A stretch of 64,000 nucleotides of DNA from Plantibacter sp. ME-Dv--P-122b (GTDB lineage Bacteria > Actinomycetota > Actinomycetes > Actinomycetales > Microbacteriaceae), in assembly GCF_030209375.1 (NCBI RefSeq), contig NZ_JARVSC010000011.1, positions 1-64,000 of the forward strand. Reading direction: 5' to 3'. This document shows positions 13,269-26,294 of the stretch, one piece after another. The notes beneath the pieces were generated by a model. It saw only the letters and a list, made by a program, of their open reading frames with translations, did not search any database and was not told the DNA's origin. The translations under genes were made by a program, and so were the position numbers. Numbering within the stretch: the stretch's first letter is position 1; each line of letters starts with the position of its first letter.

Positions 13269-14564
13269 ATGACCTCTCCCGCGCGGCCCGCCCCTGTCGC
13301 GGCCCGTCTGCGCTCGGCGCTCCCGCCGGTCCTGGTCCTCGCCGGTGCGGTGGGGTACCTCGGGGTCGTGCCGTTGGTCGACGAGCTGCACGCCGTGCCG
13401 GGTCGGATCCCGCCGTGGGTGCACGCGGCCCTGGTCGTGCTCCAGGCCGTCGCGTTGCTGTTTCGGATCCGGTACCCGGTGGTCGTGTTCGGGGCTGTCG
13501 TCACGCTCGACCTCGTGATCCTCGGCAGTACCGGCGGTGAGCTCGGGATCGGCTCGTTCGGGGTGATCCTCGCCAGCTATGCGCTCGCTCGGCACCAGGA
13601 CCGTCGGACGGTGCTGACCGCACTGGTGACGGGCGCGGTGGCGACGACAGTCGTCGGCGGCATCGCGATGGTCTTCGGGTCGTCCGAGGCGCCGCTCATC
13701 CTCGTGTTCGCGGCCGTCGCGCGCATCGTGTTGCAGTACGTGCTCCCGGCCGGTGTCGCCGAGTACGCCAGGGGTCGCGAGCGCTTGCTGTCGGCGATCG
13801 AGGACCAGGCGCGCATGGCCGAGAACGAGCGTCGGATCAGCGTGCAGAACGACCTCCGCGCGGAACGCACCGCCCTCGCGCGGGAGCTGCACGACATCGC
13901 CGGACACCACCTGTCGGGGATCATCGTCAGTGCGCAGGCGGCCAGCGCTCTGGTGGAGCGCGACCCGGACCGCGCTCGGGAGATGCTCCAGACGGTGCAG
14001 TCGGATGCCCGCACCACGCTCGTGGACCTGCGGCGGACGGTCGGCCTCCTGCGCAGCGACGACGCGGACGCCCAGGGCGGCGGAGACGGATCGACGCTCG
14101 GGCCGGCGACCACTCCGACCATCGCGGCGATCCCGGAACTCGTCGAGGCGGCGCGGTCGCGGGGGCAGCACGTCGCGTACACCGTGACCGGTGAGCCTCG
14201 TGTGCTGGGGCCGCTTGCGGAGACGGCCGCGTATCGGACCGTCCAGGAGTCGCTTGCGAACGCCGCCCGGCACGCGCCCGGAGCCGTCTGCCGCGTGACG
14301 GTGCGGTTCGAGGCTGACGCGATCGAGCTCACCGTGACGAACGCCGCATCGTCGCAGCGGCCTGCTTCGCCGTCGCGTGACGGTTACGGCCTCTGGGGCA
14401 TGCGCGAGCGCGCCGAGCTCATCGGAGCGCGGTTGACCTCGGCGCCGACGGACGAGGGCGGGTGGCGCAACCGACTGACCATCCCTGACGAGCACCGTCC
14501 TGACGACCGTCCCGACGAGCACCGTCCTGACGACCGTCCCGACCAGCACCGGAGTGACCAATGA
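13269..14564 (+). CDS. Sensor histidine kinase (HisKA_3)
   Basis: A 431-residue kinase. About five membrane helices fill residues 15-165. The phospho-acceptor helix is ALARELHDIAGHHLSGIIVSAQA. The ATPase domain has ESLANAARHAPGA (N-box) and GYGLWGMRERAELIGA (G-box). The last 25 residues are a hydrophilic D-H-R-P repeat encoded by a 27-base tandem repeat, with no counterpart in normal kinases of this type. Start ATG 13269 is preferred because upstream codons in frame do not look membrane-like. Its stop overlaps the response regulator by four bases. Confidence 0.92.
   Translation: MTSPARPAPVAARLRSALPPVLVLAGAVGYLGVVPLVDELHAVPGRIPPWVHAALVVLQAVALLFRIRYPVVVFGAVVTLDLVILGSTGGELGIGSFGVILASYALARHQDRRTVLTALVTGAVATTVVGGIAMVFGSSEAPLILVFAAVARIVLQYVLPAGVAEYARGRERLLSAIEDQARMAENERRISVQNDLRAERTALARELHDIAGHHLSGIIVSAQAASALVERDPDRAREMLQTVQSDARTTLVDLRRTVGLLRSDDADAQGGGDGSTLGPATTPTIAAIPELVEAARSRGQHVAYTVTGEPRVLGPLAETAAYRTVQESLANAARHAPGAVCRVTVRFEADAIELTVTNAASSQRPASPSRDGYGLWGMRERAELIGARLTSAPTDEGGWRNRLTIPDEHRPDDRPDEHRPDDRPDQHRSDQ
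14485..14550 (+). repeat. 27-bp tandem repeat at the 3' end of the kinase gene
   Basis: Two full 27-base units (14485-14511, 14512-14538) differ at one base; a partial third unit ends at 14550. Because 27 is a multiple of three, each unit adds nine residues (DEHRPDDRP) without shifting the frame, so copy number can change neutrally. Confidence 0.9.
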
Positions 14565-15223
14565 TCCGTCTTCTCATCGCGGACGACCAGGCGGTCGTCC
14601 GCGCCGGCCTCTCGGTGATCCTCGGTGCCGAGCCCGACATCGAGGTGGTGGGCGAGGCGATCGACGGTGCCGACGCGGTGCGGTTGGCGAGGGAGCTGCG
14701 TCCGGACCTGATCTGCATGGACATCCGGATGCCGGGCATGGACGGGATCGCGGCGACCCGCACGATCACGGCGGATCCGGAGCTCGACGCCGACGTCCTC
14801 ATCCTCACGACGTTCGACGTCGACGCGGACGTGTTCGCCGCCCTCGAGGCCGGTGCGGCGGGCTTCCTGCTCAAGGGTGCCGATGAGGCGACGCTGCTCG
14901 CCGCGATCCGGTCCGTCGCAGCGGGGGAGGGGACGCTCGATCAGCGCCTCACCCGTCGCATCCTCCGTGAGTTCTCCGAGCGCAGACGCGAGGCGCCCGC
15001 GGCCACGATGGCACCGGCGGAGTCGCCGCTCACCGATCGCGAGTTCGAGGTCCTCGACCTGCTGGCGCAGGGACTCTCCAACGCGGAGATCGCCGACCGC
15101 CTGTTCGTCGAACCCACCACGGTGAAGTACCACCTCGCCGGTCTGCTCCAGAAGACGGGAGCGCGCGACCGCCTGCAGGCCGTGCTCTGGGGCATCCGCG
15201 CGGGGCTCGTCGACCCGCGGTGA
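14561..15223 (+). CDS. NarL/LuxR-family response regulator
   Basis: A 220-residue regulator. The receiver domain has IADDQ, phospho-Asp in ICMDIRMP, LILTTF and LLKGADE. The C-terminal helix-turn-helix is LTDREFEVLDLLAQGLSNAEIADRLFVEPTTVKYHL. It is the partner of the kinase it overlaps (ATGA) and probably controls the upstream exporter/hydrolase genes. The sequence changes to an AT-richer composition about 15 bases after its stop, where the island begins. Confidence 0.94.
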   Translation: MIRLLIADDQAVVRAGLSVILGAEPDIEVVGEAIDGADAVRLARELRPDLICMDIRMPGMDGIAATRTITADPELDADVLILTTFDVDADVFAALEAGAAGFLLKGADEATLLAAIRSVAAGEGTLDQRLTRRILREFSERRREAPAATMAPAESPLTDREFEVLDLLAQGLSNAEIADRLFVEPTTVKYHLAGLLQKTGARDRLQAVLWGIRAGLVDPR

Positions 15224-15295
15224 GCCGAGTGCAAACGACATAAGAAATATTATCGGATCAGCCTGATTGAGCATCAATTGACGGTCGCACGGCCG

Positions 15296-17047
15296 TTATC
15301 CCCGACCTGTCGGCAGCTCACTGAGCTTGTTGGGCAGTCTGGTGTAACCAGGGTGCTCATTGATGCCTTCTACTGACCATGGTTTCGTGATTACGACGGA
15401 GTGCCCGGCGGCTTCGAGATGTGACGGGCTGTAGATCACCCAAGGAAGCTCATCTGCGGGTCGTATGGCCAGATGGTTGCCTTCACCCTTGCCGGCACGC
15501 AGGTCAGCGAGCAATCGTTCGGAGCCATCTGCCACGGCGTGGTGTGTGTAGTACGCGACCTCGTCTAAGTGGAAGGGTGTATCGAGTACCTCGACGACAA
15601 AGTCTGGATCACTGGCTACAGCTGCAGCGCCCTTTACGAGCAGTAGCTCAAGGCCTTCGTCGAGCATGCCGTTCAGGGTCCCGCCAAACGTTCCCGTGTT
15701 GGGGTGCGCAACAGCTTCGCCTCGGATCAGCATGACGAGAATTCGCGCCCAGAGACGGTCCGATGCCGGCACGTCGTTCGAGGGGTAGCGGAGGGTGACA
15801 TCGAAGTGATCCTCGAGAGTGCAAAGGTCCTCCACGAAGTCCCAGAGTCCCCGATCCGGCAGCGGCGAAGCTTGGCTTCTGAAGTTCATCCACAGAGTGG
15901 TCTCGCCAGCGAGAGTGATCCCGATCTCCGTATGTGACGCAAGTGCATCGAGAAATCGCAGCGCTCTTCTGATCTCACGCGCACTGTTGCCGGCGAATTC
16001 GGCCTCGGTCGAGACTGCACCGGTGTCATTAATGTCAACTGGGAATCGCCAGGTCTGCGTGACGCCACCCTCAAGAGACACGCGAATAGTTCCGCCGCCA
16101 ACTCCACGTGCTCTCGCGCGTGTCTGGCCTGACAAGCTGGCCGCAGCGCGTTCATTCGGGTCTCGAACCTCGACCCTCGCACGTACCGGTTCATGGTCGT
16201 CCTCAGCCGGACCGATCACGAGACTGCCCCGTGAGCCCTCTTCCGCGAACCATTCCGGACCAACCTTGTCAAGGGAGAGCACGACCCGCTCCGGGAGGTG
16301 GATCGCATCGATGACGCCGAATTTCATAGAGTCCTCGAACTGCTTCTTCAGATCAGCATCATCGGCGTTGAACCCCAAGGAGAGAGATATTCCTAGCGGC
16401 TCCCGCTCGTGCGAATCCTCCCGTAAAGCCTGGAGTGTCTCGATATATGATCCGCCGGAGGCAAAGGTGACAGACGGGGCCCAGTACTCGCTTCGCCCTT
16501 CTAGACGTTCCTGGAGCCGGGAGACTTCAGCGCGCAGGTCCCCGGGTTTCGCGAGAGCTGCCTCCGGACGGTGCACGGCCGCGAGCATCTGGATAGACCG
16601 ATCGATTGTGAACCGATCTTCAATGTCGGGGTGCTTGGCGAGTAGCCCGTCAAGTTCGGCCGGGCCCATGAATCGAATGGTGACGCGTGCCCCATTCCTC
16701 ATTCCAAGCACAGCCTTGCGCTCTCGAGCCGTCGGGTTCGTCGGCACCACGAGCGTCCACAGTGGTGGGGTTTCCTTATCGATCGCCCGCGCCAAGGAGT
16801 GCTTGATCTGAGCGCGTCGACCTCCGTTGCCGCCAGAGAAACCGCCGGGGAAGTACTTGAGCTGCAGGGTGTGCACAAGTTGATTGGTCTTCTCCACGCG
16901 CACCGCAACATCAATCCCGTCGTCGCCGCCGCGCCCACCTAGCGCATGAGCCCTGAGGCCGTCCCGCGTGTACTCGCGAACGAGCAGAGCTTCGACGATG
17001 TCATTGAAGTCATTCTCGTTTATGTGTCGCCAGTCAATTCTGCCCAC
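15296..17047 (-). CDS. Large protein with N-terminal Mrr-like PD-(D/E)XK nuclease domain
   Basis: A 583-residue cytosolic protein. The start is GTG 17047, directly after AGGAGG with a five-base spacer; an in-frame TTG at 17143 lacks a ribosome site. Residues about 8-75 read as a restriction-endonuclease fold: helix NDFNDIVEALL, then GGRGGDDGIDV with the metal-binding Asp, then HTLQLKYFPGG with the Q-x-K core. This resembles Mrr-type enzymes that cut modified or foreign DNA. The remaining 450 residues (a predicted coiled stretch DLRAEVSRLQERLEG near 170, then mixed alpha/beta) match nothing I recognise. Codon use is AT-richer than the flanks. It lies in an island with a resolvase, so an anti-phage role is plausible but unproven. 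Confidence 0.75.
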   Translation of the reverse strand: MGRIDWRHINENDFNDIVEALLVREYTRDGLRAHALGGRGGDDGIDVAVRVEKTNQLVHTLQLKYFPGGFSGGNGGRRAQIKHSLARAIDKETPPLWTLVVPTNPTARERKAVLGMRNGARVTIRFMGPAELDGLLAKHPDIEDRFTIDRSIQMLAAVHRPEAALAKPGDLRAEVSRLQERLEGRSEYWAPSVTFASGGSYIETLQALREDSHEREPLGISLSLGFNADDADLKKQFEDSMKFGVIDAIHLPERVVLSLDKVGPEWFAEEGSRGSLVIGPAEDDHEPVRARVEVRDPNERAAASLSGQTRARARGVGGGTIRVSLEGGVTQTWRFPVDINDTGAVSTEAEFAGNSAREIRRALRFLDALASHTEIGITLAGETTLWMNFRSQASPLPDRGLWDFVEDLCTLEDHFDVTLRYPSNDVPASDRLWARILVMLIRGEAVAHPNTGTFGGTLNGMLDEGLELLLVKGAAAVASDPDFVVEVLDTPFHLDEVAYYTHHAVADGSERLLADLRAGKGEGNHLAIRPADELPWVIYSPSHLEAAGHSVVITKPWSVEGINEHPGYTRLPNKLSELPTGRG

Positions 17048-17398
17048 GTGATCCTCCTGGGTCGACCGTACGGCATCACCCCGACTCTCCAACACGATTG
17101 GCTGCAGCGTCCAATCCTCATCGTGTCGGGGCTCGTCCGCCAACCTCGTACGCGCGTAGGGGCGCTTAATGCCAGAGCAAGATCGCAGCGATATTGACCA
17201 ACAGCGATCGTTTTAGACCACGAACGATCCTGCCGGTGTCCCGTAGGAGGTCCCCCTGTCGGACAGATCCCCGGACGGGCCTGCTGGGACGTTTCCATAG
17301 GCAGCATGCTGCAGATCGTCCCTCGTTCTCTGAGCGTCCCGGTGAGAAATTCTCTATCGGGATGGTGCAATCCGGAGAAACGGTGCCACCCTAGCGGC
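17048..17398. other. Divergent intergenic region of the island
   Basis: This 351-base region separates the nuclease-like gene (minus) from the small membrane protein (plus). It contains an interrupted hairpin at 17091-17127 (ACACGATTGG / CCAAT...ATCGTGT), in the leader of the nuclease gene. There is also a perfect 7-bp inverted repeat GATCGTT/AACGATC at 17206-17212 and 17223-17229, and a 12-bp palindrome GCAGCATGCTGC at 17301-17312. A weak CACCCT box lies six bases before ATG 17399. No gene is supported. Confidence 0.6.
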
Positions 17399-17851
17399 AT
17401 GGCTTCTGACGCAAATCTCGTTCCGCTGATCGTCACACTCGGGCACGTCGGTGACGACAGCCTCCAATTGCGGTTTCCTCCGGAGTACAGCGAGGAGATC
17501 TTGAAACTGCTGGACGAGCACGACATTGACCACAACACGGCTGCGGAGTTTTCCGCTGGTCCTGTGGAATGGATCGAGGTCGTCACGGTCCTCGGTGCTG
17601 CCGCAGCGGGCGTCGGCGGGCTTAGCGGTCTGGCCGCTGTCATTACAGCGTTCGTCCGCCGCCATCAGGACAAGAGATTCATCTTCAAGCGCGGGGATGT
17701 TGAAATCGATGCGGCTGGGTACTCGCAGAAAGCCGTCGAATCTATGCTGCAGAAGCTTCCCGCGGAACAGGCGGCGCGGGACGCCGAGACTCGGCGCATC
17801 CTGGGTACATCCGCTGAGGAGGATGGCTCCTCCAGACGTTCACACCAGTAG
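17399..17851 (+). CDS. Small membrane protein, EACC1-like
   Basis: A 150-residue protein. Residues about 1-55 form a small soluble alpha/beta part (LQLRFPPEYSEEILKLLDEHDI). A hydrophobic segment follows (EVVTVLGAAAAGVGGLSGLAAVITAF), then a basic turn (VRRHQDK) and a short C-terminal unit FIFKRGDVEIDAAGYSQKAV. This order (soluble lead, one membrane helix, RR turn, beta-rich tail with G-D-V-E-I) resembles Effector-Associated Constant Component 1 proteins of actinobacterial conflict systems. The match is from memory of the family pattern. It is divergent from the nuclease-like gene across a shared control region. Confidence 0.65.
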   Translation: MASDANLVPLIVTLGHVGDDSLQLRFPPEYSEEILKLLDEHDIDHNTAAEFSAGPVEWIEVVTVLGAAAAGVGGLSGLAAVITAFVRRHQDKRFIFKRGDVEIDAAGYSQKAVESMLQKLPAEQAARDAETRRILGTSAEEDGSSRRSHQ

Positions 17852-17934
17852 CGACCCGAGGAAGACCGCAACAGAGCGGCCCGGCGGCGCATTCGCGCAG
17901 TCGGGCCGCTCGTGGTGGTGATGGGGGTGTGTGC

Positions 17935-18024
17935 TCAGAAGCCGCCGGCGGGGCGCACCTGGTAGTTCTCTTCGAGCGCAGTCACCTCGTCCGGGGTGAG
18001 GTTGATGTCGACGGCGGCGGCCGC
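17935..18024 (-). pseudogene. 3' remnant of an aldo/keto reductase gene
   Basis: The minus strand encodes AVDINLTPDEVTALEENYQV and then RPAGGF before a stop. This is the characteristic C-terminal tail of aldo/keto reductases (beta-strand, L-T-x-E-E-V-x-x-L-E-x-x-Y, basic residues, GF/GH end). An in-frame stop lies directly upstream, so only about 28 residues survive. It marks a recombination breakpoint inside the island. The GTGCTCAGAA overlapping its stop is repeated at 18111-18120. Confidence 0.5.
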
Positions 18025-18045
18025 TTACATGTGGTCGCCCACCCG

Positions 18046-18059
18046 GAAACGATCGTTTC
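18046..18059. repeat. 14-bp perfect palindrome
   Basis: GAAACGATCGTTTC. The half CGATCGTTT also occurs at 17205-17213 as part of another inverted repeat. It lies between the reductase remnant and the resolvase gene, so it could be a protein-binding site or a trace of the recombination that built the island. Confidence 0.6.
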
Positions 18060-18150
18060 TGAGCATGTTCCGGTCGACCCGATGCCGTAGCGAGGTTCTG
18101 CGAGCGTTGGGTGCTCAGAACTCGTTGTCGAAACCGAAGTGCTCGAAACG

Positions 18151-18744
18151 TCAGGCTGTTGGGGTTCTGCTCGAGGTGCTGGTCTGGTGTCGGTAGAGCG
18201 TCGCCCGGCTCCAGCCGACGAGTGCAGCGGCTTCTGCTGCCGTGCGGCCGCGATCGCGGGCTTCAGCGACGATGGCGAGCTTCTCGGCGATGACGTCGGG
18301 ATCCACTGGTGGGCGCCCAAATCGCGTGCCTGATTCGCGGGCCGCGGCGATGCCAGCGTTGACGCGTTCGACGATGAGCTCGCGCTCGTACTCGGCCAGG
18401 GTGGCGAGCATGTGGAGCATCAGCCGGCCTGTCGACGTCGCGGGGTCGATGCCATCCGAGAGTGATCGCACGTGGATCCCGCGGGCGCGCAGGAGCTCGA
18501 CCGTGTTGAGTACGTCGATCAGGGATCGTCCGAGGCGGTCGATGCGCGACACGATCACGGTGTCGCCGGTCTCGGCGTACTCGAGCAACTTCGTCATGCC
18601 GGGGCGCTCGATTGCTGTCTTACTGCCGGAGGTCACATCCGCGAACACGTCACGTTTCTGCACGCCGGCGTCGAGGAGCGCGTCGAGCTGCAGCTGTGCG
18701 TCCTGGCCGGCGGTGCTGACTCTGGTGTACCCGATCTGCCTCAT
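18151..18744 (-). CDS. Serine site-specific recombinase (resolvase/invertase)
   Basis: A 197-residue small serine recombinase. The catalytic domain opens MRQIGYTRVSTAGQDAQLQL, with nucleophile Ser10 and Arg8. It continues with the conserved DRLGRS (Asp, Arg) and ends its catalytic core at AEYERELIVERVNAGIAAAR. The C-terminal Hin-like helix-turn-helix is GRTAAEAAALVGWSRATLYRH. Length and layout are those of Tn3-type resolvases and invertases, not large integrases. The start is chosen at the conserved MRQIGYTRVS; upstream codons read poorly. No transposase accompanies it. A candidate recombination site lies directly upstream. Confidence 0.93.
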   Translation of the reverse strand: MRQIGYTRVSTAGQDAQLQLDALLDAGVQKRDVFADVTSGSKTAIERPGMTKLLEYAETGDTVIVSRIDRLGRSLIDVLNTVELLRARGIHVRSLSDGIDPATSTGRLMLHMLATLAEYERELIVERVNAGIAAARESGTRFGRPPVDPDVIAEKLAIVAEARDRGRTAAEAAALVGWSRATLYRHQTSTSSRTPTA

Positions 18745-18754
18745 TGCACCAAAA

Positions 18755-18818
18755 TGTCTCAGAAACCCACGTGAAGGTAATTGAGACACGCAACACCGTG
18801 AGACGAGTTTTCGAGACA
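18755..18818. other. Candidate res/crossover site upstream of the resolvase
   Basis: TGTCTCA (18755-18761) and TGAGACA (18782-18788) form a perfect 7-bp inverted repeat with a 20-base spacer. Further GAGAC copies at 18800-18804 and 18813-18817 give a four-element array just before the recombinase start. This is the expected place for a res site. The following stretch to 19045 shows no gene that I can support. Confidence 0.5.
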
Positions 18819-19045
18819 GAATGCTGGCTGGGAGATCCGCGGATCCTCGCGCCCGAGTTGGCCCGGTTGGACGCGGAGCCATGTGTCTCGTAAATCTGTG
18901 GCTTCCTGAGGCAAAGTGGCTTTCCGGCCGTCGAGCATGGAGTCGGCGTGGCGAATCGGCACTGAGTCCGCCACTTCCGCCTCGGTCCGGATTGTTCTCG
19001 CCTGCTCGATCGTGCAAGTCTCACCCTGGTAGGAATGGCGGGGTT

Positions 19046-19264
19046 ATGAATGTTGAGATGATGATCGGATCGATCATCGTGCTGATTGCAGGTGGGGGCC
19101 TGGTGATCTTCCCCAGGGCGTTCGACCGGTACGCAGGACCGCGCCTGCGGAGGACCATCCGGAGGCAGCAGACTTCTCCCGACGGAGGTGCAGCTCTCTG
19201 GCGATGGCTTGGGCTTCTTGCCGCCATCTTGGCAACGCTCATGCTCATCAGGTCGCTCGGGTGA
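19046..19264 (+). CDS. Small two-helix membrane protein
   Basis: A 72-residue protein with two hydrophobic segments (MIGSIIVLIAGGGLVIF and WLGLLAAILATLMLI) joined by a basic loop (RYAGPRLRRTIRRQQ). The ATG at 19046 is chosen because the membrane-like sequence begins there; the ribosome site is weak. No family recognised. It may pair with the next gene, which is also a small membrane protein on the same strand. Confidence 0.55.
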   Translation: MNVEMMIGSIIVLIAGGGLVIFPRAFDRYAGPRLRRTIRRQQTSPDGGAALWRWLGLLAAILATLMLIRSLG

Positions 19265-19323
19265 GAGGGACAATACGAAGAAGTCGTCTCAACAGTCTCG
19301 GCGCTGTGGCTCAGGAGGAATGC

Positions 19324-19665
19324 ATGTCCGACCCGTCGCCCGGACGTGCAAACGAGCCGTACAGAGACGAAGCCCCTTCAAATGGAACGCGAGTGTGGGT
19401 CGTCGCAGCGACCGCAGCACTCATCGCGCTGGTGCTGCAGATCATCCTCCGAGTCGTGATCGACCGGCTCGCATCAGCGCCAACGGAGTTCTTTTCGGCC
19501 GATGACACAAACGAGTCCCGGGTCACCCTGGTCTTCGGACTGAGCCTCATGTTCATCTTCCCGACCGCACTCTACCTGCAGACGGTTCGGGCCGCGCGAC
19601 GTGACCTGACCCTCCGTCAACGCATCGGTGGTGGTGGACGTACTGGGGGCCAATCGCGTGGGTGA
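19324..19665 (+). CDS. Small membrane protein, probably frameshifted near its 3' end
   Basis: A 113-residue frame starting after AGGAGG. It has a hydrophilic N-terminus and two membrane helices (VWVVAATAALIALVLQIILRVV and LVFGLSLMFIFPTALYLQ). The last residues (GGGGRTGGQSRG) look out of frame. In the -1 frame from about 19629 the sequence reads WTYWGPIAWVTAGFALSWG, then FLRFG and a stop at 19707-19709: a good third membrane helix. A GGT/TGG-repeat at the junction could have gained or lost bases, or the sequence has an error. Function unknown. Confidence 0.6.
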   Translation: MSDPSPGRANEPYRDEAPSNGTRVWVVAATAALIALVLQIILRVVIDRLASAPTEFFSADDTNESRVTLVFGLSLMFIFPTALYLQTVRAARRDLTLRQRIGGGGRTGGQSRG

Positions 19666-19751
19666 CCGCCGGTTTTGCGTTGAGCTGGGGATTCTTGCGT
19701 TTCGGCTGAGCTGCGTTCGGCGGTGGGAGCGGACCGATTCGCCTCCGGCAC

Positions 19752-19770
19752 TCAGGTAAGGCTATCCTTC
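19752..19770 (+). promoter_or_regulatory. IdeR/DtxR iron box
   Basis: CAGGTAAGGCTATCCTTCC closely follows the 19-bp DtxR/IdeR consensus (TTAGGTTAGGCTAACCTAA), including the central GG-CTA-x-CC. It stands 34 bases before the siderophore-binding lipoprotein gene. Repression by iron-loaded IdeR is the expected mode. Confidence 0.75.
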
Positions 19771-19803
19771 CTAGGTCCCACCCCCTCGAATGAAGGAGAC
19801 GAC

Positions 19804-20847
19804 GTGCACCAGCGCGCCGCCATCAGCCTCGCCCTCGCAGCCGTCCTCGCCATCGGGCTCTCCGCCTGTGGGGCCTCCGAAGCCGTCGAACCGGAGTCGA
19901 CCGCCGCCGCAGGGCAGGGCGCGACCGACTACCCGCTCACACTCGACAACTGCGGCACCGAGGTCACGATCGACGCCGCACCACAGCGGGTCGTCTCCCT
20001 CGACCAGAACTCGACCGAGATCCTGCTGTCCCTCGGTCTGGAGGACCGCATCGTCGGCACCGCCTCCTGGACGGACCCCGTCCTCGACTCCCTCGCAGAC
20101 GCGAACGCCGACGTCCCGCGGCTGGCCGACAACGCCCCCACCTACGAGGTCGTCCTCGGAGCCGACCCGGACTTCGTCACCGCGTCCTTCGGCCGCCACT
20201 TCAACGAGGGCGGCGTCGCACCACGCGAGCGCTTCGCCGAGACCGGTGTCGCCAGCTACCTCTCGCCCACCGACTGCGACAACGGGACGAGCATCAACGG
20301 CGGCGGGACGCGTACGACGCCGCTCACCATCGACGCGCTGTACCAGGAGATCACCGAGATGGGCGAGGTCTTCGACGTCTCCGCCCGTGCCGCCGCGCTC
20401 ATCGCCGAACTGCAGGATCGTGCCGCGAAGGCGACCGAGGGTGTCGACTTCGACGGGACGACCGTCGCGTTCTGGTTCGCCGACACGAAGACCCCGTACG
20501 TCGGCGGTGGGCTCGGATCCGCCGCGCTGCTCGCCTCGACCACCGGGCTCGACAACGTCTTCGGTGAGCTCGAGGACGACTGGCCGGCCACCACCTGGGA
20601 AGACCTCGTCGACCGTGACCCGCAGGTGCTCGTCCTCGGCGACCTGCAGCGCGACCGCTTCCCCGGCGACCGCCTCGACGACAAGGTCGCCTTCCTGGAG
20701 TCCGACCCGCTCACGAAGACCATGGACGCCGTGCGCAACCAGCGGTACATCGCCCTGCACGGCGCCGAGCTGAACCCGTCCATCCGCTTCGTCGACGGCC
20801 TCGAGAAGATCAAGGCGTGGTGGGTCGAGCACGAGGACGAGCTCTGA
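19804..20847 (+). CDS. Fe3+-siderophore ABC transporter substrate-binding lipoprotein
   Basis: A 347-residue FecB/FhuD-type receptor. GTG start after GGAG. The signal is LALAAVLAIGLSAC, with lipidation at the Cys in LSACG (about residue 22). The binding-protein fold begins PQRVVSLDQNSTEILLSLGLEDRIVG and contains VLGADPDFVTASFGR, typical of siderophore receptors with a rigid inter-domain helix. It heads a three-gene operon with the FecCD permease and ATPase and has an IdeR box upstream. The particular siderophore cannot be told. Confidence 0.93.
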   Translation: MHQRAAISLALAAVLAIGLSACGASEAVEPESTAAAGQGATDYPLTLDNCGTEVTIDAAPQRVVSLDQNSTEILLSLGLEDRIVGTASWTDPVLDSLADANADVPRLADNAPTYEVVLGADPDFVTASFGRHFNEGGVAPRERFAETGVASYLSPTDCDNGTSINGGGTRTTPLTIDALYQEITEMGEVFDVSARAAALIAELQDRAAKATEGVDFDGTTVAFWFADTKTPYVGGGLGSAALLASTTGLDNVFGELEDDWPATTWEDLVDRDPQVLVLGDLQRDRFPGDRLDDKVAFLESDPLTKTMDAVRNQRYIALHGAELNPSIRFVDGLEKIKAWWVEHEDEL

Positions 20848-21953: not shown

Positions 21954-22921
21954 CACTCCGCGCAGAGAATGTCTCCTGGAACCGCGGCGGCGCGCTCGTC
22001 GTCGACGGCGTGACCCTGCACCCCGAGCCGGGCCAGACCGTCGGCCTCCTCGGGCCGAACGGGTCGGGCAAGTCGTCGCTCCTGCGGGTGCTCCACGGCC
22101 TCGTGAAGCCGACCGCCGGACTCGTGACGCTCGACGGGGTCGACCTGGCGTCGGTCGGTCGACGGCGCATCGCGCGTTCGGTCGCCTCGGTGACGCAGCA
22201 CGCGGACACCGACGTCGACATCACGGTGCGCGACATCGTCCGGCTCGGCCGGATCCCGCACCGCTCGGGACTCGGCGGTGACACCGCGGCCGACGAGACC
22301 GCCGTCGACCGCGCGCTCGCCCACGTCGGTCTGTTCGACCAGGCCGGCCGTCTCTGGCACACCCTCTCCGGCGGTGAACGCCAGCGCGCGCAGATCGCGC
22401 GGGCCCTCGCTCAGGAGCCCCGTGAGCTGCTCCTCGACGAACCGACCAACCACCTCGACATCCGACACCAACTGGAGCTGCTCGACCTCGTCTGCGCACT
22501 CCCGGTCACGACCGTCATCGCCATCCACGACCTCAACCTCGCCGCGATGTACTGCGACACGGTCGTCGTGCTCCGGGCCGGTCGAGTGGTCGCTGCAGGG
22601 GCACCGGCCGAGGTGCTGACCGCAGCACTCATTGCGGACGTCTACGGCGTGGTGGCCGAGGTGACGCTGGACCCCAGGCGAGGCCACCCCGTCGTCACGT
22701 TCACGCGATCGGTCCCGGCTGACACCTCGGATGTAGTTCAGTCTTGTCCCGAAAAGGTCTATTCTGACTCTGACGTATCGCCTCGACTCGTTCGGGGAGC
22801 GGAGGGGGCGGGAAGTTGTCTCGAGATGGATCCACGAACGCCTGCCGGCTGGCGGGCAGCCAGCGAGGACAGGCGCCTCGACGACGTACCCAGCAGGTGT
22901 CGAACTCGACCCGCCCCGTGA
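21950..22921 (+). CDS. Siderophore ABC transporter ATP-binding protein with foreign C-terminal tail
   Basis: A 323-residue frame. The first 254 residues are a complete FecE-type ATPase: Walker A GPNGSGKSS, signature LSGGERQR, Walker B LLLDEPTNHLD, H-loop AIHDLNLAA and end DPRRGHPVVTFTRS. That is the usual family length. The following 69 residues are low-complexity and unlike any ATPase; the frame simply runs into the next DNA. A second copy of the codons for DPRRGHPVVTFTRS, with only synonymous changes, lies at 28409. So the gene end was recombined when the aspartate block arrived. ATG follows GGAGGA. Confidence 0.92.
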   Translation: MTLRAENVSWNRGGALVVDGVTLHPEPGQTVGLLGPNGSGKSSLLRVLHGLVKPTAGLVTLDGVDLASVGRRRIARSVASVTQHADTDVDITVRDIVRLGRIPHRSGLGGDTAADETAVDRALAHVGLFDQAGRLWHTLSGGERQRAQIARALAQEPRELLLDEPTNHLDIRHQLELLDLVCALPVTTVIAIHDLNLAAMYCDTVVVLRAGRVVAAGAPAEVLTAALIADVYGVVAEVTLDPRRGHPVVTFTRSVPADTSDVVQSCPEKVYSDSDVSPRLVRGAEGAGSCLEMDPRTPAGWRAASEDRRLDDVPSRCRTRPAP

Positions 22922-22938
22922 CCGCGAGCTGACGGCCG

Positions 22939-24651
22939 ATGGGTTGGATTCGCGACGTCTTCGTCAGTCATCCCGAAATCGCCGTGTTCGTCGCGCTCGG
23001 TTTCGGATTTCTCATCGGCAAGGTGACGATTCGGGGCCTCGGTCTCGGTGCCGTCACCGGAACGCTGCTGGTCGGCGTCGTCATCGGCGCGGTCCTCGGT
23101 GAAGACCTTCGTGTCGATCCCGTCGTCAAGCAGATCTTCTTCCTGCTCTTCCTGTTCTCGCTCGGCTACAAGCTCGGACCGCAATTCGTGGCAGGCCTCC
23201 GTGGATCAGGACTGCCCCAAGCGGTCTTCGCGGTGGCGCTGGCGGCAGTCGGACTCGGGGCCGCTGTGGCGACAAGTCTCGTCCTGGGCTACAACCCTGG
23301 AATCGCCGCAGGACTCGCAGGCGGCGGACTGACGCAGTCCGCCATCATCGGCGTAGCTCAGGACGCGATCTCAGGACTGCCGATCGACGCGGACACCGCG
23401 GCGCAGTGGAGTGACCTGGTGCCGGTGGCATACGCCGTGACGTATATCTTCGGCACGATCGGGGCAGCTCTGTACATCTCGTTCGTCGCCCCCCGCCTGC
23501 TCGGGATCAGAAACCTCCCCGAAGCCGCACACGACCTCGAGGTGCAGCTCGGGTTCCACGAGGACGACCCGGACGTCACGAGTGCGTATCAGCACATCCA
23601 TCGCCGCGCCTACCTGCTCGACGACACCTTCACCGCCCAGTCGATCGCGGAGTTCGAATCCGAATCCGTGCGTCGCACCGGCTCTCACCTGTACATCGCA
23701 CGCGTTCGTCATGGAGGGGAGATCGTCGAGCCGGACCTGGACCACGGTCTCGTCGCCGGCGATGTCATCGTCGTGGCCGGTGCATACCCTGCCCTCATCG
23801 ACGAGCATCTCGAACGATTCGCCGCCGAGGTGGTGGATCCGGAGATTCTCGACTTCGCTCTCGAGACGCTCAGCATCGTCGTGACGAGCAAGGAGGTCGT
23901 CGGAAGGACCGTTGCAGAGCTGCGTGCGGATCCACGCTCACGCCGGATCTTCCTCACCAAGGTGACTCGGGCCGGTCAGACGCTGCCGTTCACGGGGGCC
24001 ACCGTCCTCCAGGGTGGTGACGAGCTGCGCGTGCAAGGCCCGCTTTCCCTTCTGGAGCAGGGGATCCGTCACGTGGGCTACCCGGAACGCACCGACCCGA
24101 AATCCGACATGGTCACCGTCGCCTTCGGCATCACGGCGGGCGCGTTGATCGGAGTTCCGACGATCGTCCTCGGCTCCGTGCCCCTGTCGCTGACCACGAG
24201 CGTGGGCGCTCTCCTCGTGGGTCTGCTGCTCGGCTGGCGACGCGCGAAGAGCCCGACGTTCGGCCATGTACCACCCGGTGCACAGTGGTTCTTCGAGACC
24301 GTCGGCCTCACGCTGTTCGTAGCCGTCGTCGGCATCAACGCCGGCCCGGGCTTCGTCGCGGGACTCCGGGACTACGGCGTCCAGCTCTTCCTCGCGGGAG
24401 TCTTCGTGACCTTGGCACCCCTCATCGTGATGACCCTCGTCGGTCGGTTCATCTTCAGGAAGACGCACCCCGTCCTCATCCTGGGGATGTTGACGGGTGC
24501 ACTCACAACGACTGCCGCGGTCGGCACCCTCCGCGAGACAGCCAAGAGCAGTGTGCCGCTGCTCGGCTTCACGGTGCCGTACGCCGTGGGGAACATCGTG
24601 CTCACCATCGGAGGCGCCGTCGTCGTCGCCATCACCTCCACCACCGGTTGA
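22939..24651 (+). CDS. aspT: Aspartate:alanine exchanger (AspT family)
   Basis: A 570-residue antiporter. Two homologous membrane halves (about 10-190 and 385-570, YidE/YbjL duplication) carry the G-rich pieces GLAGGGLTQSAIIG and LTGALTTTAAVGTLRE. Between them are two RCK_C/TrkA-C-like domains (about 205-375), as in AspT. The family exchanges extracellular aspartate for intracellular alanine; with decarboxylation inside, this builds a proton motive force. The aspartate 4-decarboxylase gene follows after 14 bases, confirming the pairing. The ribosome site before ATG 22939 is weak. Confidence 0.88.
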   Translation: MGWIRDVFVSHPEIAVFVALGFGFLIGKVTIRGLGLGAVTGTLLVGVVIGAVLGEDLRVDPVVKQIFFLLFLFSLGYKLGPQFVAGLRGSGLPQAVFAVALAAVGLGAAVATSLVLGYNPGIAAGLAGGGLTQSAIIGVAQDAISGLPIDADTAAQWSDLVPVAYAVTYIFGTIGAALYISFVAPRLLGIRNLPEAAHDLEVQLGFHEDDPDVTSAYQHIHRRAYLLDDTFTAQSIAEFESESVRRTGSHLYIARVRHGGEIVEPDLDHGLVAGDVIVVAGAYPALIDEHLERFAAEVVDPEILDFALETLSIVVTSKEVVGRTVAELRADPRSRRIFLTKVTRAGQTLPFTGATVLQGGDELRVQGPLSLLEQGIRHVGYPERTDPKSDMVTVAFGITAGALIGVPTIVLGSVPLSLTTSVGALLVGLLLGWRRAKSPTFGHVPPGAQWFFETVGLTLFVAVVGINAGPGFVAGLRDYGVQLFLAGVFVTLAPLIVMTLVGRFIFRKTHPVLILGMLTGALTTTAAVGTLRETAKSSVPLLGFTVPYAVGNIVLTIGGAVVVAITSTTG

Positions 24652-24665
24652 TCTGAGGAGAACTC

Positions 24666-26294
24666 ATGCCCATCGCCAGCGTATCCCGCGAGCAGATCGC
24701 CCGACTACAGACGCTCTCCCCATTCGAGCTCAAAGCAGAACTGCAGCGGCTCGCAGGTGAGCACGAATCACGCACAGCCTTCCAGATGCTCAACGCGGGC
24801 CGCGGAAACCCCAACTTCATCGCTCCAACCCCTCGTGAAGCGTTCTTCGCGCTCGGGCAGTTCGCATTGGAGGTGTCTCGTGAGAACAAGGAGTGGGACA
24901 CCGAACTGATCGGGGTGCCGGAGAAGGACGGTATCGCCGAGCGCTTCCGCGCCTGGCTGGCCGCGCATGAGGGTGAGCCCGGGGTCGAGCTGCTTTCCAA
25001 GGTGCTGGCGTACGGCATCGACACACTGGGCTTCATTCCGGACTCGTTCGTGTGGGAGCTTGCAGATTCGGTGATCGGCGACCACTACCCCGAGCCGGAT
25101 CGGATGCTCGCCCACGCCGAGGCCATCACGCACGCCTATCTCGTACAGGAGATGTGCGCGGGAATCGAACCGGAGGAGCCCTTCGATCTCTTCGCGGTGG
25201 AAGGCGGCACCGCAGCCATGTGCTACATCTTCGACACCCTGCTCAAGAACCGCTTGCTGCACAAGGGCGACACCGTCGCGATCATGACGCCCATCTTCAC
25301 CCCCTACCTCGAGATCCCTCGACTCGCCGACTACGACTTCGACGTGATGCACATCGAAGCGAGCGTCGTCGACGCCCGGGGAGTGAACCTGTGGCAGTTC
25401 CCCGCAGAGGAGATCGAGCGCCTGCGTGATCCGTCGGTGAAGGCCCTCTTCGTCGTGAACCCCACGAATCCTCCGTCTGAACGGATCCCCGAAGACACGC
25501 TGCGACACATCGCCGATGTGGTCGCCACGGACAACCCGGATCTCGTCATCATCACCGACGACGTCTACGGCACCTTCATCGACGGTTTCCGCTCCTTGAT
25601 GTCGGAGATCCCCGAGAACACGATCGGGGTGTACTCGTACTCGAAGTACTTCGGGGCGACCGGTTGGCGACTCGGAGTCATCGCGGTCAACCGCGACAAC
25701 ATCTTCGACCGGCGCCTTGCGGAGCTCCCCGACACGGTCCTCGACGAGCTCGACGCCCGGTACGGCACACTGTCGCTGCATCCGAGACGGATCCGCTTCA
25801 TCGACCGCCTCGTCGCGGACAGCCGGTCTGTCGCGCTCAATCACACCGCCGGGCTCTCCCTCCCGCAGCAGTGCATGATGCTCCTCTTCTCCGCATACTG
25901 CATCCTCGACACCGCAGACCACTACAAGCACGAGACGCAGGCGCTCATCGCCCGGCGTCTTGAGTCGCTCACGAACGGTATGCAGGTGCACCTCCCGGAG
26001 GACGCGAACCGCGTCGGCTACTACATCGAGCTGGACATGCTGGCCTACGCGCGCCGGCATTGGGAGCCGGCTTTCGCCGACTTCCTCGAGGCGAACTACG
26101 AACCCACGGACATCCTGTTCCGACTTGCCGAGCAGACAGGGATCATCCTGCTGAACGGGGGAGGTTTCGAGGGACCGGTGTGGTCCATTCGCATCTCGTT
26201 GGCCAACCTGCGGGACGTGCAGTATGCGCAGATCGGAAGAAGTCTGCGTGCAGTCGCCCTCCAGTACGTCGACGAGTGGGAGCGAGCCCGTTGA
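24666..26294 (+). CDS. aspD: Aspartate 4-decarboxylase / aspartate transaminase (PLP-dependent)
   Basis: A 542-residue fold-type I PLP enzyme that converts L-aspartate to L-alanine and CO2. Length and sequence follow the bifunctional AspD family, which carries a long N-terminal extension absent from ordinary transaminases (QMLNAGRGNPNFIAPTPREA). PLP-site residues are visible: FVVNPTNPPSE, IITDDVYGTF and the Schiff-base Lys in SYSKYFGATGWRLG. The start follows GAGGAG. It lies between aspT and the MprF-like gene in one apparent operon. The consumed proton and exported alanine would raise internal pH. Confidence 0.9.
   Translation: MPIASVSREQIARLQTLSPFELKAELQRLAGEHESRTAFQMLNAGRGNPNFIAPTPREAFFALGQFALEVSRENKEWDTELIGVPEKDGIAERFRAWLAAHEGEPGVELLSKVLAYGIDTLGFIPDSFVWELADSVIGDHYPEPDRMLAHAEAITHAYLVQEMCAGIEPEEPFDLFAVEGGTAAMCYIFDTLLKNRLLHKGDTVAIMTPIFTPYLEIPRLADYDFDVMHIEASVVDARGVNLWQFPAEEIERLRDPSVKALFVVNPTNPPSERIPEDTLRHIADVVATDNPDLVIITDDVYGTFIDGFRSLMSEIPENTIGVYSYSKYFGATGWRLGVIAVNRDNIFDRRLAELPDTVLDELDARYGTLSLHPRRIRFIDRLVADSRSVALNHTAGLSLPQQCMMLLFSAYCILDTADHYKHETQALIARRLESLTNGMQVHLPEDANRVGYYIELDMLAYARRHWEPAFADFLEANYEPTDILFRLAEQTGIILLNGGGFEGPVWSIRISLANLRDVQYAQIGRSLRAVALQYVDEWERAR

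Follow-up and report, generated by a model that had tools for sequence, protein, structure and literature searches.

A Plantibacter defence hotspot allele encoding a 583-residue protein with a predicted Mrr/Avs4-type nuclease head and an unrecognised body

Introduction

Avs4, a protein of 1534 residues with an N-terminal nuclease domain (PDB 8dgf), is by its nuclease one of the known systems closest to the protein described here, which has 583 residues and is encoded in an insert within a 64,000-nucleotide stretch (the window; contig NZ_JARVSC010000011.1) of Plantibacter sp. ME-Dv--P-122b, a member of the Microbacteriaceae (Actinomycetota). Apart from its size, the Plantibacter protein differs from Avs4 in a body that matches no NTPase family and no solved fold. 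Shedu is also a single-protein nuclease defence, but its nuclease domain is C-terminal whereas that of the window protein is N-terminal; a PADLOC scan, the library of which presumably includes Shedu models, gave no match of the window protein to Shedu. Relative to Mrr-like type IV restriction enzymes and to MspJI, the head falls below recognition by PF04471 and the body is unrecognised. PDC-M58A, a phage-defence candidate of PADLOC, matches the head, but its 154-residue model corresponds to the head alone, without the body.

The chromosomal site of the gene also has a described counterpart. The core defence hotspots cDHS1 and cDHS2 of Pseudomonas aeruginosa are described as sites at which immune systems replace one another between conserved flanks (PMC10250203). 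The site studied here is alike in these respects, but belongs to another phylum, and is set apart by inserts that are small and lie at the 3′ end of a response regulator (RR) gene and by a recurring small serine recombinase. A narrow literature search yielded no paper that we recognised as describing the protein or the site. The protein is probably a rare DNA-cutting protein with an antiviral role. The original prediction for this DNA had proposed a mobile island coding for a protein with a nuclease head, an unrecognised body and a small membrane partner; the last of these was not upheld, the others were.

Results

One allele of a hotspot at the 3′ end of the RR gene

Comparison with the same site in six other genomes of the genus (blastn) delimited a variable insert at 15225..19733 (no strand, 61.5% GC). 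Homology on the left ended at 15224-15225 in four genomes, at 15242 in one and at 15256 in one, adjoining the stop codon (15221-15223) of the RR gene. This gene (14561..15223, + strand; assigned by family scan and same-genus comparison) is the conserved left flank, and its 3′ end is the insertion point; it was present in all six genomes with 94-99% identity. The right flank is a gene for an iron-siderophore binding protein (19789..20847, + strand), named from its sequence and its ABC neighbours without a family scan, which is next along in five of the six (94-97% identical). Homology restarted at 19731-19734 in all five; the sixth genome, G004, had the left flank only. The inserts measured 4509 bp in the window, 708 bp in G006, 10686 bp in G001, 5239 bp in G002, 8678 bp in G003 and 10326 bp in G005. 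The GC content of the six inserts was 59.5-64.5%, versus 70-71% in the flanks of the window.

Along the window, the GC fraction (500-base windows) was ~0.69-0.74 up to ~15.2 kb, 0.58-0.67 from there to ~19.7 kb and 0.69-0.70 again after that. At third codon positions (GC3) it was 0.66 in the large gene, 0.69 in the small membrane-protein gene and 0.81 in the recombinase gene, as compared with 0.91 and 0.92 in two flanking genes. The abrupt shift in composition and codon use after the RR gene, predicted to end near the iron box at 19752, is borne out by these values, and the predicted edges (15236 and 19720) are near those set by homology (15224-15256 and 19731-19734). The insert is absent from the site in all same-genus relatives compared, as expected of a mobile island. 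The flanks are conserved and the cargo varies, and the segment can more precisely be called an allele of a defence hotspot.

Only one long element, the small serine recombinase, is found in more than one allele. Its block (window positions 18181-18911) was found at the same site in G003 (731 bp), G005 (635 bp) and G001 (384 bp), with 80-85% identity to the window; the block shared between the G003 and G005 inserts was 1119 bp. Beyond it, pairwise insert matches amounted to only 61 and 42 bp. In G002 (86 bases, L125 5993-6078) and G005 (29 bases, L127 11169-11197, reverse complement) part of the RR 3′ end was present a second time, at the right-hand boundary of the insert; no such copy was seen in the window, G001, G003, G004 or G006, and no paired attachment sites were recognisable in the island. 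These partial copies, possible traces of a past event, suggest recombination at the RR 3′ end.

Fifteen proteins chosen from four of the sites (G001, G002, G003 and G005) were scanned with PADLOC. All four from G001 (L124) matched, as CBASS cyclase, E1-E2, SAVED-HNH effector and PifA-like NTPase; so did all three from G002 (L125), as HamA, HamB and HamC. Three of the five from G005 (L127) matched a second CBASS-type cyclase, an OLD/GajA-like and a HEC-07-like protein. These matches put recognised anti-phage genes at one shared chromosomal position in three of the six relatives, so that several known defence systems occupy one site.

Nuclease head and body of the 583-residue protein

The gene (15296..17047, − strand) has a full-length open frame that begins with GTG, preceded by AGGAGG. 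The head (residues 1-147) is, by its predicted structure, a PD-(D/E)xK nuclease of the Mrr/Avs4 type. The residues D46, Q62 and K64, corresponding to the catalytic D and the QxK/ExK motif, were invariant in 54 of 54 aligned rows, and the model has the nuclease fold that defines PD-(D/E)xK enzymes; together they support the Mrr-like head of the original prediction. The Pfam family Mrr_cat (PF04471) had no match in the window protein or elsewhere in its genome, and matched 9 of the 54 family members weakly. The PADLOC scan of the protein returned PDC-M58A only (E 5.7e-5, residues 36-176 of a 615-aa reading). When the whole model was searched against the folds of BFVD, only one match reached E ≤ 0.001; it was a phage restriction endonuclease.

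The body (about residues 150-575) comprises 426 residues, and its shape was predicted with confidence. Searched as one piece against solved structures it had no match, and scans with Pfam, NCBIfam and PADLOC yielded no family for it; the proposed structure prediction and fold search left the body as unrecognised as it had been called. Neither an NTPase family nor Avs was matched by the three family scans. The fold-search lists for the body lacked STAND, SRA, SAVED, CARF and TPR, an absence that excludes nothing. In a search of the phylum, the body was found in 4 of 396 genomes, including its own. The relative in G515 has a head with D..ExK, whereas G786 (60% complete) contains a 388-residue body ORF without head, the upstream side being taken by another ORF. 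No body fused to another head was seen in these two, which were the matches inspected; G482 matched as well.

Distribution and neighbourhood

Relatives of the protein were present in 6 of 398 genomes of the family, including its own, in 15 of 72,556 plasmid records, each from an actinobacterium, and at 72 loci of a GTDB contig collection, all Actinomycetota by title; this last scan relies on conserved short stretches and reports near relatives only. One IMG/VR contig carries a copy beside a large serine recombinase. Overall, the family is sparse, plasmids included. The only full copy within the genus is that of the window genome; G002 has a truncated copy (residues 1-98, 76%) at another place than the hotspot. 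That copy (L129 7332-12096, contig 7) adjoins a 1302-residue protein with a weak match to a protease model, and a 100-residue ORF beside it has what we take to be a resemblance to Trypco1. The tree, built from 54 copies, placed that of the window with those of Microbacterium paulum and Demequina soli; Demequina and one Pseudarthrobacter fell inside the Microbacteriaceae set.

The neighbours were surveyed at 83 loci with a copy (L001-L003 and L006-L010 excluded; a few loci are duplicated between collections). Serine recombinases formed the commonest cluster, with 13 loci, or 11 once duplicates were removed. At three loci, from three genera, the gene has immediately upstream a small serine recombinase that overlaps its called start (L024 261-845, L037 5310-5987 and L071 5418-6005). 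Short-chain dehydrogenases (10 loci) and transposases (7), both named by eye, came next. The 583-residue protein has no conserved partner gene.

The protein that had been proposed as its partner is a 150-aa one-helix membrane protein (17399..17851, + strand) with a top 19-residue hydropathy of 1.92 at residues 64-82. In tblastn over 95 loci nothing beyond the two loci of the window matched it at E < 0.01, and no match was found in plasmids. Of the 398 genomes of the family, five others hold relatives, all without the large gene, and only the window genome carries both proteins. On this co-occurrence the partnership was rejected, and the gene is regarded as an independent accessory gene. Its own family (L130-L134) is sparse and without a common neighbour seen; in L132 the relative is near an array of similar small ORFs resembling immunity genes. 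An assignment to EACC1 was not obtained, as PF19953 was not matched and no Pfam family was found at E up to 1.

Other features of the insert and its surroundings

The remaining predicted gene content was also present. A C-terminal gene remnant with an open C-terminal end (about 17937..18026, − strand, from translation) presumably is an aldo/keto reductase tail, judged by eye. It is followed by the gene for the 197-aa small serine recombinase (18151..18744, − strand; PF00239, E 7.4e-43) and by small hydrophobic ORFs of 72 aa (19046..19264, + strand) and 113 aa (19324..19665, + strand), both read from translation, for which no relative was found at E < 0.01 among the loci collected for the analysis. 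Past the iron ABC genes, at 22750-26000 of the window, the GC fraction drops again to about 0.63-0.67. Elsewhere at the hotspot, the G003 allele encodes a 504-residue protein without PADLOC match (L126, 3575-5089, − strand), a further candidate for an undescribed system.

Discussion

We consider it fairly probable that the segment is a defence-hotspot allele in which the 583-residue protein acts against phages or plasmids as a lone DNA-cutting defence nuclease triggered by its body. Cargo would be exchanged at the 3′ end of the RR gene, with the small serine recombinase as the putative agent, and the defence gene of the window allele would most likely be the 583-residue protein, acting alone. 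Its body may sense an infection trigger or recognise incoming DNA and thereby license the N-terminal domain to cut DNA, either foreign DNA or, on infection, that of the host. As a lone nuclease with an invariant active site, encoded at a defence hotspot and on plasmids, the protein most likely attacks DNA upon recognition. In a more specific and tentative version, the body would have a new fold, would directly sense a component of a phage or plasmid and would gate the attached Avs4-like nuclease; the protein would then be a compact, NTPase-free single-protein counterpart of the Avs receptors, thinly spread in Actinomycetota.

Several observations weigh against the protein being a defence nuclease in a mobile defence allele. 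The nuclease activity is predicted from sequence and model. None of the three proteins scanned from G003 matched PADLOC, and the two sites outside that scan hold genes that by eye resemble those of sugar metabolism (G004) and one 211-aa ORF (G006). No match to the whole protein was obtained by tblastn against 50,697 phage records. The tree required 15 changes of host family for 14 groups, where 13 is the least possible (the count of 4 for Microbacteriaceae is inflated, as the window and one relative were labelled otherwise); as the tree largely follows host family, transfer between families looks limited. Near neighbours of the large-gene copies offer suggestive evidence of named defence systems: 148 of them matched 147 PADLOC families at 1e-10, and GajA, HamB, cyclase, AbiEi, dGTPase, PDC-S18 and PDC-S28 were represented by one neighbour protein each among the 25 families listed. 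These counts prove little, since 147 random genes, drawn from 13 stretches in five genomes of the family, gave matches to 63 PADLOC families, with MADS ATPase models and PD-T4-6 kinases at the top, and only family numbers were counted.

A type IV, modification-dependent restriction enzyme, in which the body would recognise modified bases and the Mrr-type head would cleave with no signalling step, is an unlikely alternative but the least unlikely of those considered; neither SRA nor a modified-base reader of any other known type turned up in the family scans or the body fold searches, which does not exclude one. Quite improbable is a factor for competition between plasmids or transposons, a nuclease that excludes rival mobile elements instead of phage. 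It would account for the copies in the 15 plasmid records, for the serine recombinase in 11 distinct loci and its overlap with the called gene start in three, and for the copy beside a large serine recombinase on the virus-collection contig, but the chromosomal site of the gene holds phage-defence systems in relatives.

The gene remnant within the island and the broken family copies elsewhere (G318, G002) would agree with a relic that has lost its function and travels with the recombinase; we regard this as very improbable given the full-length open frame, the good ribosome site and the intact invariant residues of the head. Still less credible is a two-gene unit, be it a membrane sensor with its effector or a toxin with its antitoxin, of the nuclease and the divergent small protein. 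The genes adjoin and are divergently transcribed in the window, and the small protein has the one-helix build that one report gives for EACC1 (PMC7159879), but at E < 0.01 it is near no other copy at the loci compared, and the carriers of the two overlap in the window genome only.

If the 583-residue protein is a lone defence nuclease of a hotspot allele, two conserved genes would flag an interval in which each further genome could reveal new immune systems of actinobacteria, as has already been proposed for core hotspots of P. aeruginosa (PMC10250203). The protein itself would join a nuclease of a familiar type to a recognition body, the predicted fold of which lacks a solved counterpart, and the structure of that body could reveal how an invader is recognised without an NTPase switch.
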